Of a DNA stretch of 64,000 nucleotides, positions 26,166-33,875 are shown in pieces. The notes below the pieces were generated by a model that was not told where the DNA came from, searched no databases, and was given only the letters and a program-made list of their open reading frames with translations. A program made the position numbers and the translations under genes. The DNA lies in assembly GCA_002281555.1 (NCBI GenBank), contig NCGJ01000004.1, positions 186,001-250,000 of the forward strand. The letters run 5' to 3'. This DNA is from Hydrogenophilales bacterium 28-61-23 (GTDB lineage: Bacteria; Pseudomonadota; Gammaproteobacteria; Burkholderiales; Thiobacillaceae). Position 1 is the first letter of the stretch, and each line of letters begins with the position of its first letter.

Positions 26166-26458
26166 CCCTGGCGATACCGAAATGGATTTCACCTTGGCCG
26201 AGGCCAGGAAAACCTATGCAGTTCACTCCGGGCCGGCAAATAGCCGAAATCGGGAAATTCCCGACCTTCTGCAAGCGTGAATAACCTGGACTTATGAGCG
26301 AGCCACAAGCTTCCGAGGGCGTGCGACACGAATCCAGACACCGAAAATCAAGCCATTCGTAAGCGCCAATAGTGCAGCTCAAGATTTAACAATCGGCGGT
26401 ACCGCCGCCCAATAATTCGCGCGAATATTTTTCCAACTTTCCGACTTGGGAACAGCCG

Positions 26459-26591
26459 CGCTTCAGCTTTCCCGCCGTCATCATTGACGAAGACTTCCGT
26501 TCCGAGAACGCTTCCGGGCTGGGCATCCGCGCCCTGGCCAAGGCGCTGGAAGTGGAGGGCATGGAAATCCTCGGCGTCACCAGTTACGGCG
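26459..26591 (+). pseudogene. Broken copy of the start of the amino-acid decarboxylase gene
   Basis: These 133 bp match 31629-31761, near the start of the intact decarboxylase gene, without gaps and with about five mismatches. The frame still reads FPAVIIDEDFRSENASGLGI, but the start codon is lost (CCGCG where the intact gene has TCATGCG), and the match ends abruptly at 26591. Weak similarity extends upstream into the leader. The rest of 26166-26854 (about 690 bp without an intact gene) shows nothing else recognisable except a possible GC-rich hairpin before a T-run near 26800-26828. Confidence 0.86.
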
Positions 26592-26854
26592 GCCAGTCCG
26601 TGCAGTGCCCGTTAACCCGGCCAGGAACGATCTCGATAAAACCCGATTCGCCGCGCCTGCGGCGATTTGCCACATTCCGACGGGGACATATTTTCCATAG
26701 GATGCACCGCCGTTGCTGGTGTCGCGGGCATGCCTCAGGGGCTGCCGGCTTAAACACAAAACATCACAAAACATGAACTTCGATGCGGCTCGGTTTTGAA
26801 CCGCGCACGGCCGCGCCGAAGATTTTTTACCCCTATCTTCATAAGGCTTCCGAA

Positions 26855-27487
26855 ATGAAAGTGTTCAAGCTTCTTGCCTCCCTTGTCGTCACAACGCTCT
26901 CCGCAACCGGTATCGCGCAAGCAGATTCCTATTCCCCGGAAGCAATCGGCGACCTGCGTTACATGATCGAGGAAGAAAAACTGGCCGGCGACGTGTACCG
27001 GTCCTTCGGTGTCCTCTACCCCGCGATAAAGCCATTCATCAACATTCCGAAATCCGAAGACCAGCATCAAGCGGCGCTGGTCGGGCAGGCCAACCTTATC
27101 GGCATCGACGTCAGCGATCTGACCTCTTTGGCGGCAGGGAATTTCCAGAATACGACCCTGCAGACGCTCTATGGAAACCTGCTGGCACAAGGCGCCACCT
27201 CCAGCTTTGCCGCGCTGACCGTCGGCAAAAACATCGAACTTCTCGACATCGACGATCTCAGCGCCGCCATGGCGCAGGTTCCCGCGAACTCTTCGCTCTA
27301 CGTGGTCTATGACGGCTTGCGAAGCGCGTCATATAAGCACCTGAACGCATTCAACACCTGGCTGGCCGTGACGCCCCCGCCGCCGGTGCCGGAACCCGAA
27401 ACCTACGCCATGTTGCTGACCGGACTGGGTTTGCTTGGCGCGATGGTTCACCGCCAGAAAGTACGTATTGGCGGTTCACGATCGTGA
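26855..27487 (+). CDS. DUF2202 (ferritin-like) PEP-CTERM protein
   Basis: A 210-residue exported protein. Signal peptide VFKLLASLVVTTLSATGIAQA. A DUF2202 four-helix domain (about 25-185) contains DLRYMIEEEKLAGDVYRSF and PKSEDQHQAALVGQ, placing Glu and His residues as in ferritin-like folds. The C-terminal sorting signal is VPEPETYAMLLTGLGLLGAM followed by basic residues. PEP-CTERM tails are processed by exosortase, which is not in this window. The start is set at the signal peptide. Converges with the TonB receptor gene. Confidence 0.85.
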   Translation: MKVFKLLASLVVTTLSATGIAQADSYSPEAIGDLRYMIEEEKLAGDVYRSFGVLYPAIKPFINIPKSEDQHQAALVGQANLIGIDVSDLTSLAAGNFQNTTLQTLYGNLLAQGATSSFAALTVGKNIELLDIDDLSAAMAQVPANSSLYVVYDGLRSASYKHLNAFNTWLAVTPPPPVPEPETYAMLLTGLGLLGAMVHRQKVRIGGSRS

Positions 27488-27580: not shown

Positions 27581-29869
27581 TCAGAAATTCAGATTCAGCG
27601 CGACATTGACTGAGCGCCCCTTGCCCGGCACGGACATTCCCCATGGCACACCGTTGCTGGTCATCGAGTTCCCCTGACCCAGATAGGCGCCGCCCAGAGG
27701 CAGCAGATAGAACGTGTCAAATACGTTTTCGACGCCGATATCGATACGGGCATGTTTCCACTCGTAGCTGCTGCGCAGATTGAACAGCGAGTACTCTCCC
27801 GTCGGCACCTCGTTCCTGACCTGCGACACCTTTGTCTTGTCGGCGACCCACTGAATTTCGGCGCTTGTCGTCCAGCCGTCCAGCCGATGCACCAGGGCAA
27901 GTTTCGCGTTCAGCGGCATCATGTGATACAGGTTGTCGCCGGTGCTGCGGTTCTCGCCTCGGACGTAATTCAAGCCACCGGTTCCGGTGAAACTGCCTGA
28001 ATTGCCACTCCGAACCAGGAGACGATGACCAGAAATGTCCAGTCCGTAGAGCCGGGCCGACTGATTGACATACTGCAGCGAGACATAGCCATTGGTTTTG
28101 GTCAGGTTCGTCGCGCCGCCGCAGCCGGAGAGGCTGCAGCGCTTGGCATCGATAAAATCGTCTACTTGGGTGACGTAACCCGTCGCCTTGATGCCCCAGG
28201 TCTTTCGCTCTGCGCCATGCCAGTCGACCGTGGCACTGAAGGCATGGGCCACTTCCGGCATCAGATCGAGATTACCAATATAGGCATTGCCGTCGCCGAC
28301 GAAATTGTTCATCAAGGCCGCCATCGAGAAAGCCGACCAGGGATAGCGCTCATAGAGATTCGGCGAGCGGGATTTTCGGGAAAATCCAGCCTCATAGGTC
28401 TGCATCGCATTCGGCGTGTAACGCGCCAACAGCGTCCAGTCCAGGTTGTGATCGATGCGCTGGCGATCGAGCGCATTGAAGGCCGCCGAGTCGGCCGCGT
28501 AATTCCCGGCGACGGTGGAATAGCCCTGCACCTGCCCCGCATCGGATTTGACGGTGTCGCTACGAATACCGACCAGCGTCAACCATTCCGGGGCCCAACG
28601 TGCTTCCCATTCGGCGAAGATGCCGACCCGGTCCCGCTTGCCGTCCCGGATATTCCAGAAATCGTCGCAGCACATCGATCCGGGCGCAGTGCCGATTGGC
28701 GGCCACCAGTCGTCCAGGCGATAACGCTGGAAGTCGCTTCCCAGCCGCAGCGTATCTGTTGCGGAAAGGTCGATGCCGCCCTTGATTAGCCCGCCTACAG
28801 TCGTCGCCTCAGTGTCCATCGGCATCAGCATGCCGAAGAACCTGTCCTGGATCATGTCCATGTGATGCCGGAGGTCTTGCCGAAAAACCCGCGCTTCCAG
28901 TTCACCCCACTGGTACTGCCCGGTGTAGCCCAAATTGACCAGCTTGTTGATGTTGGAAGGCTGGTTTTTGTCGACGATGTATCCGCCAGGATTGCTCGGG
29001 TCGGGCACGCTGGCGATCATGTCCATGCGCTGGTTGGGAAAGCCTTCATAGTCGAGCCTTTGCTCGCTCACGGTCAGCTTGAGCAGATGCTCCGCCAAGC
29101 GTAATCCCAGCCCGAGACTTCGATCCCGCGAGCCGCCGTATTCGCTCGACCCCACCTCGTTCCCCGGCAGTACGTGCTCACCCATGCTTTGCCAGAGACC
29201 GGGCAGCTTGAAGTCAGCCGCCGCCCGGTAGTTGTCGGATTCGGAAATCGACTCGGCGTATGTCAGGTTCAGCTGCCGGCCCGCCAGCGTGACGCCGAAA
29301 TTGTTGCCCCGAGCATTGCCATTACTTCGATAAAAAATGCCGGCCCGCGCCTCGGTGAGAAGTCCTGCGTCGGCTTTGGCAAATTTTGGCGGCGCGGATT
29401 TCACTTGGATCGTGCCGCCGATGCTGTCGCCGCCAAGGCTCACCGGCGTAATGCCGGCAAAAACCTCGACGCTGGCGACGCTCGTCGGGTCGATGAAGGA
29501 CAGCGCGGAGTTCATGTGGTTAGGGCAGGCCGTCATCAGATCCATGCCATCTACCTGGGTGCGCAAGCGGTCGTCCGCCAGGCCGTGGATCGCCGGCAGG
29601 CTCGAAATGCCGCCCGCGCCATAGAGGCTCAAGCCAGGAATGTCCTCGAGCAGGCGCGCGGTGTCGCTGGTGCTGGCGCGTTTAGCCGGTAGAGCCTGCT
29701 TATCGAGCCTGGCAGCAAACGGAGACGATACATCGGGCTTGCTGGCTGTGACGACTATCGTATCGAGCAGCGTTTCCTGCGCCATCGCAGCCAGAGAAAT
29801 GGCGGCAAGATAGGCCGCCAGAGAATTGACGAGGAGTTTTCTGATCACGGTCTTGGATGCTTGGCGCAT
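27581..29869 (-). CDS. TonB-dependent outer-membrane receptor, possible copper receptor (OprC-like)
   Basis: A 762-residue receptor. Signal peptide, then a TonB box (DTIVVTA, about residues 36-42), a plug domain (RLLEDIPGLSLYGAGGISSL, VEVFAGITPVSLGGDSIGG) and a 22-strand barrel ending in Phe (VNVALNLNF). The plug has CPNHM (Cys115, Met119) and the barrel has HHM (His335, Met337). These match the CxxxM and HxM copper-site pattern known for OprC; the copper assignment is inference. The start at 29869 gives the signal peptide, but a terminator-like hairpin with its T-run sits 3-32 bp before it and no ribosome site is visible. Third gene after two PEP-CTERM genes. Confidence 0.86.
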   Translation of the reverse strand: MRQASKTVIRKLLVNSLAAYLAAISLAAMAQETLLDTIVVTASKPDVSSPFAARLDKQALPAKRASTSDTARLLEDIPGLSLYGAGGISSLPAIHGLADDRLRTQVDGMDLMTACPNHMNSALSFIDPTSVASVEVFAGITPVSLGGDSIGGTIQVKSAPPKFAKADAGLLTEARAGIFYRSNGNARGNNFGVTLAGRQLNLTYAESISESDNYRAAADFKLPGLWQSMGEHVLPGNEVGSSEYGGSRDRSLGLGLRLAEHLLKLTVSEQRLDYEGFPNQRMDMIASVPDPSNPGGYIVDKNQPSNINKLVNLGYTGQYQWGELEARVFRQDLRHHMDMIQDRFFGMLMPMDTEATTVGGLIKGGIDLSATDTLRLGSDFQRYRLDDWWPPIGTAPGSMCCDDFWNIRDGKRDRVGIFAEWEARWAPEWLTLVGIRSDTVKSDAGQVQGYSTVAGNYAADSAAFNALDRQRIDHNLDWTLLARYTPNAMQTYEAGFSRKSRSPNLYERYPWSAFSMAALMNNFVGDGNAYIGNLDLMPEVAHAFSATVDWHGAERKTWGIKATGYVTQVDDFIDAKRCSLSGCGGATNLTKTNGYVSLQYVNQSARLYGLDISGHRLLVRSGNSGSFTGTGGLNYVRGENRSTGDNLYHMMPLNAKLALVHRLDGWTTSAEIQWVADKTKVSQVRNEVPTGEYSLFNLRSSYEWKHARIDIGVENVFDTFYLLPLGGAYLGQGNSMTSNGVPWGMSVPGKGRSVNVALNLNF

Positions 29870-29871
29870 AG

Positions 29872-29901
29872 AAAAAGCGCGACCCCTTTTCGGGGCCGCG
29901 C
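29872..29901 (-). terminator. Rho-independent terminator just upstream of the TonB receptor start
   Basis: Read on the minus strand, GCGCGGCCCC and GGGGTCGCGC pair around a GAAAA loop (one G-T pair), followed at once by TTTTT. It closes the two PEP-CTERM genes, yet the T-run ends 2 bp before the receptor ATG. Read-through would be needed for cotranscription, so it may act as an attenuator. Confidence 0.75.
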
Positions 29902-29960
29902 GCAGGGTTGTGTCGACTGGCAAAAGCGGCCGGAAATACCGGTGGCTTGCCGCGCTTACC

Positions 29961-30701
29961 TTAACCCGCAGCCTGGCGCCGATTTCGGGCGACGAAGCCC
30001 AGCATGCCCAGTCCGGCCAGCATCATGGCGTAGGTTTCGGGTTCAGGAACGGGCGCGGCGGTTATGAATTGGGAGACCGGAACACCGCTCATCGTGCCGA
30101 TGGAACCATAGCCCGCAACCGACGTTCCCGTCATGCACACCGCGCCCATCATGCCGCCCGGGGCGCAATCTGCGTAGGCCAGTTTGTCGATCTGGGCTTG
30201 CGTCAACGATGCCAGAGGATTCGTGGTGTTGACGAAGATCATGGCGTAGGCGTTTCCGGGGTTTTTTGCCGGCTTCGGCCAGCCGAAGTAGACCCCGCCA
30301 TTATCGACACCTGATTGCGGTGACCAGCCGTCACCGCCTCCGGCATTGGTAAACGTGTTGGTGTTGTCGTTCAGGAAAGTCGTGACCAACAAGCCGCCCA
30401 GTGTCGCGTCGTACACCGATGACAACTGGTGCGTCAGGTTCAGCCAGGTCATGCCATAGTCGCCATCGACTCCGGGCGCTCCAGGATTACCGGTCATGGA
30501 TTCAGATAGCCAGCCTTGCAGGTTCGTCACCGACTGGGTGACGTTGTCGAAATCAAACGTACCTTTGAAGATCGAATCCCTGGGCTGGGTATCCGGCTCA
30601 AAGAACGTCTCGACGACGTTGTAGGTCGTGACGGCGGCCTGAGCCACCTGAACACCGGTAGCCATCAGGAACAGCACGGGTATCAGAAGTGATTTTTTCA
30701 T
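29961..30701 (-). CDS. PEP-CTERM exported protein (paralogue B)
   Basis: A 246-residue protein with signal peptide MKKSLLIPVLFLMATGVQVAQA and tail VPEPETYAMMLAGLGMLGFVARNRR, the exosortase sorting signal. The middle region is a secreted beta-rich domain of no known family. It shares AAVTTYNVxETF, FDFD, LSSVxD and KLAYxDC with the neighbouring gene, so the two are paralogues. Both carry a Cys-Pro...Gly...Met...Cys-Met block (here CAPGGMMGAVCMTG). It starts within the last 4 bp of the upstream paralogue (ATGA). Confidence 0.85.
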   Translation of the reverse strand: MKKSLLIPVLFLMATGVQVAQAAVTTYNVVETFFEPDTQPRDSIFKGTFDFDNVTQSVTNLQGWLSESMTGNPGAPGVDGDYGMTWLNLTHQLSSVYDATLGGLLVTTFLNDNTNTFTNAGGGDGWSPQSGVDNGGVYFGWPKPAKNPGNAYAMIFVNTTNPLASLTQAQIDKLAYADCAPGGMMGAVCMTGTSVAGYGSIGTMSGVPVSQFITAAPVPEPETYAMMLAGLGMLGFVARNRRQAAG

Positions 30702-31399
30702 TTCGATTTCTCCTTGGTTTTACTCCCGCGCGCCATGAACCCGACCAAACCCAGACCGGCCAGCATCAGGGCGTAGGTTTCGGGTTCCGGCACCGCCGCT
30801 GTGATCGACTGGGTGATGGGGTAAGTGCCTTTCATGGTGCCGCCTGCCGTGCCATCGGCCTTGAGCCAGCCGGCCATGCAGATGGTGCCCGACCCGTTGC
30901 GCGGCATCAGCCCCGCCGGGGTACAGTCGCCATAAGCCAGTTTGCCGATTTGCGCCGGGGTCAAGGCTGCCGTGGGATCGCCCAGCGGAACGTAGATCGA
31001 GGCAAAGGCGTTGTAATTGCCATAGGTATAAACCGGCGCCATCGCCCCGGAGCTGGCAAAGCCCCCGCCAGCAAACACATCGGTCGTGTTCTCCTTGAAC
31101 ACCGTGACCACCAGACCATCCATGCCATCCGCCACCGAAGACAACTGATAGTTGAGCGGCACCCAGGTGGTATTGCCATCCATGGCCTGGGACAGCGAAC
31201 CTGTCAGGTTGGATACCGTGTGGGTGTCTGTGTCGAAATCGAAGCTGCCGGTGAAGATCGTGTCCCAATCGGGGTGGCTGACGTTGTAGACAACCTGATT
31301 AAACGTTTCAGTGACGTTGTAAGTGGTCACGGCCGCCTGTGCCGTCTGAACAGCTGCGCTCAATGACAATGCAGCGCCGATATATGCCAGTTTCCTCAT
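30698..31399 (-). CDS. PEP-CTERM exported protein (paralogue A)
   Basis: A 233-residue paralogue of the next gene. Signal peptide IGAALSLSAAVQTAQA; tail VPEPETYALMLAGLGLVGFMARGSK. The conserved block is DCTPAGLM...GTICMAG, so the two Cys and two Met residues are kept although the loop length differs. First gene of a minus-strand run A-B-TonB receptor; it diverges from the decarboxylase gene with a 226-bp shared promoter region. The start at 31399 is set by the signal peptide; the frame is open to 31564. Confidence 0.85.
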   Translation of the reverse strand: MRKLAYIGAALSLSAAVQTAQAAVTTYNVTETFNQVVYNVSHPDWDTIFTGSFDFDTDTHTVSNLTGSLSQAMDGNTTWVPLNYQLSSVADGMDGLVVTVFKENTTDVFAGGGFASSGAMAPVYTYGNYNAFASIYVPLGDPTAALTPAQIGKLAYGDCTPAGLMPRNGSGTICMAGWLKADGTAGGTMKGTYPITQSITAAVPEPETYALMLAGLGLVGFMARGSKTKEKSK

Positions 31400-31625
31400 C
31401 TTCCGATCCCTCGAAAACCATCGATAATTGGGCCGCAGCCCACCTGGTTTCCAATGTGTCCGAAAAGGCATTTCCTTGGAATGCGACACGATGTCGCACC
31501 ATTTACCCGCATCGAAGAATTCACACTCGGTCGCTGCCCGGCTCCCTATAATCCGCGCGACCAAGCATTCCTCCGCTACTTCTTTTTCCTTTTTCCCACT
31601 TCAACTTTCCGCCCGAGAAACAGTC

Positions 31626-33875
31626 ATGCGCTTCCGCTTTCCCGTCGTCATCATCGACGAAGACTTCCGTTCCGAGAACGCTTCCGGGCTGGGCATCCGC
31701 GCCTTGGCCAAGGCGCTGGAAGAGGAGGGCATGGAAATCCTCGGCGTCACCAGTTACGGCGACCTGTCCTCCTTCGCGCAGCAACAGAGCCGCGCTTCCG
31801 GCTTCATCCTGTCGGTCGACGACGACGATTTCTCTTCCGACGAAGCCGACGAAACCATCGCCGAATTGCGCGCCTTCGTGAAGGAAATCCGGCACCGCAA
31901 CACCGACATCCCGATCTTCCTTTACGGCGAGACGCGCACCAGCCGGCACATCCCGAACGACGTGCTGCGCGAGCTGCACGGCTTCATCCACATGTTCGAG
32001 GACACGCCGGAGTTCGTCGCCCGCCTGATCGTGCGCGAGACCAAGGCCTATCTGGATTCGCTGCCGCCGCCCTTCTTCCGCGCGCTGACCCATTACGCGG
32101 CGGACGGCTCCTACTCCTGGCACTGCCCCGGCCATTCCGGCGGCGTCGCGTTCCTGAAGAGCCCGGTCGGCCAGATGTTTCACCAGTTCTTCGGCGAGAA
32201 CATGCTGCGCGCCGACGTCTGCAACGCGGTCGACGAACTCGGCCAACTGCTCGACCACACCGGCCCGGTGGCGGCCTCGGAACGCAACGCCGGGCGCATT
32301 TTCAAGTGCGACCACCTGTTCTTCGTCACCAACGGCACCTCCACCTCGAACAAGATCGTCTGGCATTCCACCGTGGCGCCGAACGACATCGTCGTGGTCG
32401 ACCGCAACTGCCATAAATCCATCCTGCACGCGATCATCATGACCGGCGCGATTCCGGTATTCCTGATGCCGACGCGCAATAACTTCGGCATCATCGGGCC
32501 GATTCCGCGTTCCGAATTCAACTGGGAAAACATCCAGCGCAAGATCGCCGCGCACCCGTTCGCGCCGGACAAAAATGCCAAACCGCGCGTGCTGACCATC
32601 ACCCAGAGCACCTACGACGGCATTCTCTACAACGTGGAAGAGATCAAGGCGGAACTCGACGGCAAGATCGACACCCTGCATTTCGACGAAGCCTGGCTGC
32701 CGCATGCCACCTTCCACAGCTTCTATCGCGGCATGCACGCCATCGGCGCGGATCGTCCGCGCTGCAAGGATTCGATGGTGTTCGCCACCCAATCCACGCA
32801 CAAACTGCTGGCCGGTTTGAGCCAGGCCTCGCAGATCCTGGTGCAGGAGTCGGAGAACCGCAAACTCGACCGCGACGTGTTCAACGAAGCTTTCCTGATG
32901 CACACCTCGACCAGCCCGCAGTACGCGATCATCGCCAGTTGCGACGTGGCGGCGGCGATGATGGAGGAGCCGGGCGGCACCGCGCTGGTGGAGGAATCCA
33001 TCGCCGAAGCGCTGGATTTCCGCCGCGCCATGCGCAAGGTCGGCGCGGAAATGGAAACCGATCCCGGCACCGACTGGTGGTTCAAGGTTTGGGGCCCGGA
33101 AGAACTGGCCGAGGAAGGCATGGGCGACCGTGAGGACTGGATGCTGCGCGCTGGCGAACGCTGGCACGGCTTCGGCGATCTGGCGCCGGAATTCAACCTG
33201 CTCGACCCGATCAAGGCCACCATCATCACCCCCGGCCTCGATGTCGGCGGCGACTTCGCCGACTGGGGCATCCCGGCCGCCATCCTGACCAAATACCTGG
33301 CCGAGCATGGCGTCATCGTCGAGAAGACCGGGCTCTACTCGTTCTTCATCATGTTCACCATCGGCATCACCAAGGGCCGCTGGAACACCATGGTGACCGA
33401 GCTGCAGCAGTTCAAGGACGACTACGACCGCAACCAGCCGCTGTGGCGGATCATGCCGGACTTCGTCGCCAAGCATCCGTTCTACGAGCGCATCGGCCTG
33501 CAAGACCTGTGCACGGAAATCCATGAGGTTTACAAAACCAACGACGTTGCCCGCCTGACCACCGAGATGTATCTGTCCGAGATGGTGCCGGCCATGCGCC
33601 CGGCCGACGCCTTCGCCCGCATGGCGCACCGCGACATCGAACGGGTCGAAATCGACAACCTGGAAGGCCGCATCACCTCCATCCTGCTGACGCCCTACCC
33701 GCCCGGCATCCCGCTGCTGATTCCGGGCGAGCGCTTCAACGAGACCATCGTGCGTTTCCTGAAATTCACCCGCGCATTCAACGAGAAATTCCCCGGTTTC
33801 GAAACCGATGTACACGGTCTGGTGAAGGAAAAAGCCAACAGCCACATGCGCTATTTCGTCGATTGCGTGGCGTAG
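31626..33875 (+). CDS. Orn/Lys/Arg decarboxylase, PLP fold type I (AdiA/LdcA-like)
   Basis: A 749-residue inducible-type decarboxylase. An N-terminal wing domain (about 1-125) precedes the PLP domain with SWHCPGHSGGVAFLKSPVG, FFVTNGTSTSNKIV, VDRNCHKSILHAIIMTGAIP, LHFDEAW and ATQSTHKLLAGLSQAS (PLP-binding Lys). The C-terminal domain ends VPYPPGIPLL-type LTPYPPGIPLLIPGERF. Similar in length and motifs to AdiA and to the Pseudomonas LdcA type; arginine, lysine or ornithine as substrate cannot be settled. A 133-bp copy of its start lies at 26459. Product would be agmatine, cadaverine or putrescine. Confidence 0.92.
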   Translation: MRFRFPVVIIDEDFRSENASGLGIRALAKALEEEGMEILGVTSYGDLSSFAQQQSRASGFILSVDDDDFSSDEADETIAELRAFVKEIRHRNTDIPIFLYGETRTSRHIPNDVLRELHGFIHMFEDTPEFVARLIVRETKAYLDSLPPPFFRALTHYAADGSYSWHCPGHSGGVAFLKSPVGQMFHQFFGENMLRADVCNAVDELGQLLDHTGPVAASERNAGRIFKCDHLFFVTNGTSTSNKIVWHSTVAPNDIVVVDRNCHKSILHAIIMTGAIPVFLMPTRNNFGIIGPIPRSEFNWENIQRKIAAHPFAPDKNAKPRVLTITQSTYDGILYNVEEIKAELDGKIDTLHFDEAWLPHATFHSFYRGMHAIGADRPRCKDSMVFATQSTHKLLAGLSQASQILVQESENRKLDRDVFNEAFLMHTSTSPQYAIIASCDVAAAMMEEPGGTALVEESIAEALDFRRAMRKVGAEMETDPGTDWWFKVWGPEELAEEGMGDREDWMLRAGERWHGFGDLAPEFNLLDPIKATIITPGLDVGGDFADWGIPAAILTKYLAEHGVIVEKTGLYSFFIMFTIGITKGRWNTMVTELQQFKDDYDRNQPLWRIMPDFVAKHPFYERIGLQDLCTEIHEVYKTNDVARLTTEMYLSEMVPAMRPADAFARMAHRDIERVEIDNLEGRITSILLTPYPPGIPLLIPGERFNETIVRFLKFTRAFNEKFPGFETDVHGLVKEKANSHMRYFVDCVA

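Follow-up and report, generated by a model that had tools for sequence, protein, structure and literature searches.

A putative two-part copper-acquisition locus in Hydrogenophilales bacterium 28-61-23: an OprC-like TonB receptor and its PEP-CTERM partner proteins

The DNA analyzed here is a 64,000-nucleotide stretch of Hydrogenophilales bacterium 28-61-23 (contig NCGJ01000004.1, positions 186,001 to 250,000; hereafter the window), in which two PEP-CTERM genes, PEP1 and PEP2, and the gene of an OprC-like TonB-dependent receptor form a compact minus-strand cluster at 27581-31399. We propose, at a probability of roughly 0.6, that this locus is a two-part copper-acquisition system consisting of the receptor and a dedicated surface capture protein; we infer that the partner proteins bind copper, lie at the surface and transfer the metal directly to the receptor.

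The receptor gene (27581..29869, minus strand) was read from an ATG start, a TTG start at 29923 being possible, and its product contained the Pfam plug and barrel. PEP2 (29961..30701, minus strand) and PEP1 (30698..31399, minus strand, ATG at 31399) are open reading frames (ORFs), each encoding a signal peptide, a common domain, here termed the partner domain, and a PEP-CTERM signal (PF07589, E 1.1e-9 for PEP2 and 2.4e-8 for PEP1; partner profile, E 2.1e-99 and 1.2e-67). The domain carries a Cys/Met block that reads DCAPGGMM..VCM in PEP2 and DCTPAGLM..ICM in PEP1; as judged from translation and conservation, the stretch from Cys179 to Met185 of PEP2 is encoded at 30147..30167 and Cys189/Met190 at 30132-30137 (both minus strand). 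In the receptor, CPNHM (residues 115-119; 29513..29527, minus strand) and HHM (residues 335-337; 28859..28867, minus strand) were found, with residues counted from the ATG at 29869. The tandem paralogues with their block and the receptor with its two motifs were therefore present as the original prediction had described them. The ORFs of PEP1 and PEP2 share 4 bases (ATGA), and AAGGAG, read by hand, precedes PEP2; given this overlap and the good ribosome-binding site, PEP1 and PEP2 are probably co-expressed.

The assignment of the receptor as OprC-like, with a copper site, was upheld by its residues, its nearest structure and the copper genes found among its relatives. OprC was the top solved structure in sequence searches, with E 3.1e-16 for the single sequence and 3e-30 for a 46-row profile (alignment A3 held 45 of the 80 receptors described below and that of the window). 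In the profile alignment, C115, M119, H335 and M337 aligned exactly to C143, M147, H323 and M325, the copper ligands of OprC (PMC8610252), which places CPNHM in the plug half of the copper site and HHM in the barrel half. In addition, both Met of the receptor's MPM aligned to OprC M341 and M343, and the first Met of RMDM to M286; these three OprC residues are the silver ligands of the methionine track (PMC8610252). In a Foldseek search with the AlphaFold2 (AF2) model of the receptor (mean predicted local distance difference test, pLDDT, 84.8), OprC chains occupied ranks 1-28 of the 50 matches listed, and the best of them gave E 3e-42 and a template modelling (TM) score of 0.74. Given that OprC is matched in both fold and residues, C115, M119, H335 and M337 are expected to lie close together.

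Conservation was assessed on the best 80 receptor loci of at least 573 confirmed relatives, a set biased to close relatives. Altogether 94 receptors were aligned, namely that of the window, those of the 80 loci from genome contigs, 12 other genome rows and one from a plasmid. Eight rows more than 98% identical to another, seven of which repeat a locus in the set, were dropped, leaving 86 non-redundant receptors, 43 with and 43 without a partner. The C, M, H and M of the copper site were invariant in 94/94 receptors and 86/86 non-redundant ones, and Met was likewise invariant at the positions of OprC M286, M341 and M343 (86/86 non-redundant). Retrieval was by the patterns ACPNHMN and PNQRMDM, so that the first block (C115/M119) and the RMDM block are in part preselected; the block with H335/M337 is in neither pattern, and 32 of the 86 receptors lack the Pro and cannot match the first pattern. 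The site named in the original prediction was thus conserved, but its HHM motif has to be relaxed to HxM, since the middle residue varies. A second receptor with the OprC site in the host genome (L149:6247-8861; retrieved sequences are cited by L numbers) reads ACPNHMD and HLMD, with the motifs CPNHM and HLM.

A profile of the PEP1/PEP2 domain detected the partner domain as a neighbour of the receptor at 36/80 loci. When the search was instead started from the domain (E <= 1e-20), partner and receptor were separated by no more than about 1 kb in 18/18 genomes: 10 of 117 from the family and 3 further ones of a class sample of 369, both queried with PEP2, and 5 further ones of an order sample of 399, queried with profile A2, these samples overlapping in part. 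Alignment A2 consisted of 59 of 60 partner stretches (one partial stretch was omitted) together with PEP1 and PEP2, giving 61 rows. The conserved synteny sought by the original prediction was therefore found, and chance neighbourhood of partner and receptor was rejected on its account. The host genome (3.5 Mb) is rich in PEP-CTERM proteins, with 59 PF07589 matches; despite this, PEP1 and PEP2 were its only proteins to reach E <= 1e-20 with the partner profile. In the family sample, the 22 remaining genomes of that genus all lacked a partner match at this threshold. The carriers, mostly metagenome bins, comprised, under their names as deposited, Azonexus, other Rhodocyclaceae, Thiobacillus, Methylophilus, Parasulfuritortus, Thermodesulfovibrio, Desulfuromonadales and Myxococcota, and a plasmid search yielded one relative, on a plasmid of Ideonella dechloratans.

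Four Met residues, at profile columns 60, 174, 179 and 193 (PEP2 M69, M185, M190 and M204), were invariant across 71 distinct partner domains, counting those that have a residue at the respective position; ORF L126 is split in two pieces in this alignment, each counted only where the residue is present. One A2 row, L088:20-682, has no Met in the PEP2-190 column owing to the position of a gap, and the same protein, as L064, has Met in the 71-domain profile alignment. The two Cys (PEP2 Cys179/Cys189) were both present in 67/71 domains, both absent in 4/71 and never single, and the Met residues were retained in the four domains without Cys, to which L065 and L090 belong. The domain contains 3.8% Met and 0.8% His, and no conserved His was found in 61 partner domains. 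Because the four Met are invariant and the two Cys are lost together, the Met residues are the likelier ligands: the Cys pair likely forms a disulfide and the Met residues are candidate Cu(I) ligands, as far as sequence comparison can tell. Of the Cys/Met block in the original prediction, the Met part consequently stands and the Cys part is dispensable; a Cys/Met chelate as the metal motif is weakened by the paired loss of Cys. Homologues without the Met residues, which the original prediction had named as evidence against it, were not encountered.

Apart from PEP-CTERM models, the partner core belonged to no Pfam family (2/61 members matched, by their tails) and to no NCBIfam family (2/61 rows matched and 59 did not). 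The FxDxF PEP-CTERM model NF038126 was narrowly missed by PEP1 (49.9) and PEP2 (48.1) at a cut-off of 50; the best stretches covered only 46 residues of PEP1 and 29 of PEP2 at the C-terminal end, and 2/61 partner rows matched. A sequence search of the PDB with the partner gave no match at E <= 1, and Foldseek retrieved no known fold for a good AF2 model (pLDDT 92.7; best E 0.027, probability 0.06). Matches to MbnP (TIGR04052 / PF20243) were absent from PEP1 and PEP2, three lipoprotein-type partners and the 61 partner domains.

The partner domain was found on two anchors. As assigned by eye, the partners of the 36 loci were of the PEP-CTERM sorting-signal type in 20, lipoproteins in 13 and both in 3. 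Among cultured carriers, Parasulfuritortus cantonensis LSR1 and Methylophilus sp. 14 have the PEP type and Ideonella dechloratans CCUG 30977 has the lipoprotein type. PEP1 and PEP2 have the properties of exosortase substrates, as the two proteins scored 38.4 and 34.1 bits with PF07589, compared with the 20.7 bits required, and the host genome contains exosortase (PF09721, four matches, three of them strong, best E 2.1e-73). A strong exosortase match (E < 1e-30) was present in 19/19 genomes of the PEP type, 5/13 of the lipoprotein type and 2/3 mixed genomes. The lipoproteins are mostly 470-530 residues long, with the same domain at the C-terminus and the gene usually downstream; in four that were scanned with Pfam, the spacer gave immunoglobulin (Ig)-like or fn3 matches, mostly weak ones. 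The original prediction of exosortase-sorted partners is thus correct for the PEP type, which represents only one of two anchors. Because the same domain travels on two outward routes, it would act outside the inner membrane, most likely at the cell surface.

In the proposed mechanism, PEP1 and PEP2 would remain on the cell surface or close to it after export and exosortase processing, and would there capture copper, most likely Cu(I), through the four invariant Met residues. The metal would then be handed to the neighbouring OprC-like receptor and pass down its methionine track to the CxxxM-HxM site, import being powered by TonB. Relatives carry this domain at the end of a lipoprotein instead. 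A more specific version, to which we give slightly less than even odds, is that the domain represents a new family of Met-based surface copper-capture domains, serving a distinct group of OprC-like receptors as their dedicated co-receptor and having exchanged lipoprotein and exosortase anchors in evolution. If that version is true, and with the same near-even odds for the two together, these would be, to our knowledge, the first exosortase-sorted proteins to feed a copper receptor.

The strict adjacency of partner and receptor would also be expected if the partner bound no metal and served as a structural or gating co-receptor, a lid seated on the receptor that regulates the entry of copper, either as ions or as a small chelate. 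SusCD-like pairs are a precedent for a lid on a TonB receptor, and both the lipoprotein form beside a TonB receptor and a domain without conserved His and with only a co-lost Cys pair fit this explanation. In contrast, four invariant Met in a domain of 3.8% Met would be unusual for a purely structural role, and classical lids are lipid-anchored, which the PEP-CTERM forms are not. We consider a lid the best of the alternatives, yet clearly less probable than capture of copper by the partner.

The link of the receptor family to copper was also apparent from its neighbours, which are given as profile counts only, since ORF clusters contain spurious antisense ORFs and were left out. PCuAC occurred in 18 of the 80 receptor loci, compared with about 0.43 expected in 1.47 Mb of flanks; the expectation was derived from 58 copies in about 198 Mb of 61 window relatives and not from the 80 loci's own genomes. 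Other neighbours were DUF2946 in 11 loci (a second DUF2946 profile in 6), MbnH in 7 and MbnP in 6, and genes of the TonB system were represented by ExbD (16), ExbB (14) and TonB (19). DUF2946 corresponds to CruR, an upstream regulator that responds to copper (PMC9426467). One or more of the four copper markers PCuAC, DUF2946, MbnH and MbnP were present in 24/80 loci, including 14 of the 44 without a partner. Conversely, a receptor relative lay at most 240 bases away in 12 of the 33 PCuAC places of the family, and the only PCuAC gene of the host genome stands directly behind the second receptor (L149:6247-8861). One tight row on the plasmid of Ideonella dechloratans comprises, in order, MbnP, MbnH (annotated MbnM), the receptor and a lipoprotein-type partner. 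At L055, a PEP-CTERM protein with a DUF2202 domain, a partner pair and a receptor lie beside a TIGR01778 receptor of 645 bits (full score). A response regulator of the ActR/PrrA/RegA type was noted near 26/80 receptors (for example L132:13725-14258) and is a possible regulator of the receptor family.

Several observations weigh against a copper-capture system. Only 10 of the 36 partner loci had a copper marker, and these gathered at the lipoprotein type (7/13); near the 20 PEP-type loci, PCuAC, MbnP and MbnH were found at none and DUF2946 at three (L081, L101 and L102, the last two from one genome), so that within the partner loci PCuAC, MbnP and MbnH were confined to the lipoprotein type. No other copper gene was found beside the receptor in the window. 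With so few markers near the PEP type, its interpretation as a copper system depends chiefly on the receptor site and domain being shared. Moreover, 44 of the 80 receptor loci had no partner, indicating that the partner is not needed by all receptors, with the reservation that 8 of these 44 have less than 2 kb of sequence on one side of the receptor. One mixed genome, L090 (a metagenome bin), contained PEP-type partners and no exosortase match. The receptor gave sub-threshold NCBIfam matches only, including TIGR01785 (131.2 bits) and the OprC/NosA family TIGR01778, for which it scored 124.7 bits against a curated cut-off of 472.45.

The association of the partner with a receptor residue is likewise less telling than the counts imply. 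In the non-redundant set, residue 339 was Met in 40/43 partner-bearing receptors (Tyr in 2, Leu in 1) and Phe in 43/43 partner-less ones. In a quick tree of 83 receptors, one branch (support 99) separated the 44 partner-less rows from the rest and another (99) separated the 22 PEP-type rows; the lipoprotein and mixed rows belonged to neither group. When two long outgroups were included, the partner-bearing rows formed one group (support 85), except for the long row L024, and the PEP type was nested inside the lipoprotein type (support 72-80), in a receptor tree that is not firmly rooted. The split between Met339 and Phe and that between presence and absence of a partner are one tree change each and count as one event.

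The lack of PCuAC, MbnP and MbnH near the 20 PEP-type loci would fit a partner whose ligand is not ionic copper but a different soft-metal substrate or a chelate of copper (chalkophore). The OprC site and track also bind Ag(I) (PMC8610252), and chelated copper is imported by CrtA (PMC12914433). In contrast, the ion site of OprC is kept exactly here, the neighbours of the receptor family are copper-delivery genes, and CrtA is reported to have no conserved Cys or Met, unlike this receptor family. We regard another substrate as rather unlikely, more so than the lid.

Expression of the proposed capture proteins relative to the receptor could be influenced by a terminator-like hairpin with TTTTT between PEP2 and the receptor ATG (29877..29901, minus strand; 10-pair stem, fold z -2.6), which could let the partner outnumber the receptor. 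At other loci, hairpins occurred at 8/24 partner-to-receptor junctions and at 17/168 same-strand control junctions (Fisher p 0.005; p 0.03 after two near-duplicates were dropped). Similar hairpins, some with unrelated stems, were seen at L073, L076, L077, L089, L090, L093, L101 and L102. Two results speak against such a role: terminator-like sites in the window region were not in excess (4, compared with 3.8 in shuffles), and 16 of the 24 junctions had no hairpin. A scan of the window region for sigma-70 promoters found none.

Convergent with the receptor gene is that of a PEP-CTERM protein with a DUF2202 domain (26855..27487, plus strand; PF09968, E 1.8e-19, and PF07589), a possible accessory. 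Such a protein was observed near the receptor in three places, the window (26855-27487), L055:6474-7112 and L075, with different orientations in the window and L055. A core part for it is unsupported, since besides the window and L055 it was linked in 1/80 loci (L075). A further PEP-CTERM protein, exemplified by L134:4416-5261, defines a second family that was found at most 3 kb from the receptor in 7/36 partner-bearing loci (L074, L076, L082, L084, L087, L123 and L134) and in 0/44 others (Fisher p 0.003), and may be a further component of the system. A 142-base direct repeat (95% identical) lies at 26458-26599 and 31628-31769; it corresponds to the 5' end of a decarboxylase gene at 31620, duplicated on the far side of the island. 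This duplication across the island suggests that the set of DUF2202, receptor and PEP genes was inserted at the decarboxylase gene. That PEP1 and PEP2 are ordinary matrix PEP-CTERM proteins, beside the receptor by chance or through a shared insertion, is in keeping with the 59 PEP-CTERM matches of the genome and the two copies flanking the island, but is very improbable in view of the 18/18 linkage, the carriers in several phyla (names as deposited), the lipoprotein versions without PEP-CTERM and the only two profile matches in the host genome.

Bacterial copper acquisition is poorly understood, and few outer-membrane copper-uptake systems are known. Protein-mediated delivery, as proposed for azurin and OprC, is disputed, and a co-encoded, conserved partner would make protein-assisted copper capture directly testable. 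The locus also suggests a function for one group of PEP-CTERM proteins, with the same cargo domain on two anchoring routes.

Among known systems, the receptor resembles OprC/NosA (TIGR01778) in its TonB receptor fold, its CxxxM-HxM site and a portion of the methionine track (M286, M341 and M343). It differs in that many members of the present family have a dedicated partner and in Met339, which follows HxM where OprC has Asn. CrtA/BfrG are copper TonB receptors with cruR, PCuAC and ExbBD/TonB genes in some operons (PMC12914433). According to that paper, CrtA has no conserved Cys or Met, imports chelated Cu(II) and usually neighbours a PepSY_TM protein; on this published definition, and without direct alignment to CrtA, membership was rejected for the receptor, in which Cys and several Met are invariant. 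MbnP/MbnH and MopE/CorA form a copper-linked protein pair often near TonB receptors (PMC3621798); the partner domain is not MbnP, and MbnP and MbnH are additional genes in the loci counted above. In Pseudomonas aeruginosa, azurin, a blue copper protein that leaves the cell by type VI secretion, was proposed to load OprC, and no azurin-OprC complex was seen in PMC8610252. Azurin thus shares with the present partner the proposed part of an extracellular copper protein loading an OprC-type receptor, and differs from it in that the present partner is encoded together with its receptor and bears a sorting signal or an anchor. The partner-receptor pair was not found described in the open-access literature, as judged from titles and abstract openings of most matches; the statement of the original prediction that no such system had been described needs one qualification. 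ZepA is a PEP-CTERM exoprotein in zinc uptake, with genes of TonB-dependent transporters (TBDTs) nearby in some species, and its transfer of metal to an outer-membrane receptor has been hypothesised (PMC10957091). The published description of ZepA sets the present partner apart, as ZepA has predicted His ligands and a Zur/zinc neighbourhood and the partner has no conserved His, a contrast drawn without aligning sequence or fold to ZepA. The locus is thus best described as pairing a copper TonB receptor with its own surface partner, one not named before; ZepA is the conceptual precedent, with zinc as its metal, and ZepA and azurin-OprC together are the nearest precedents.

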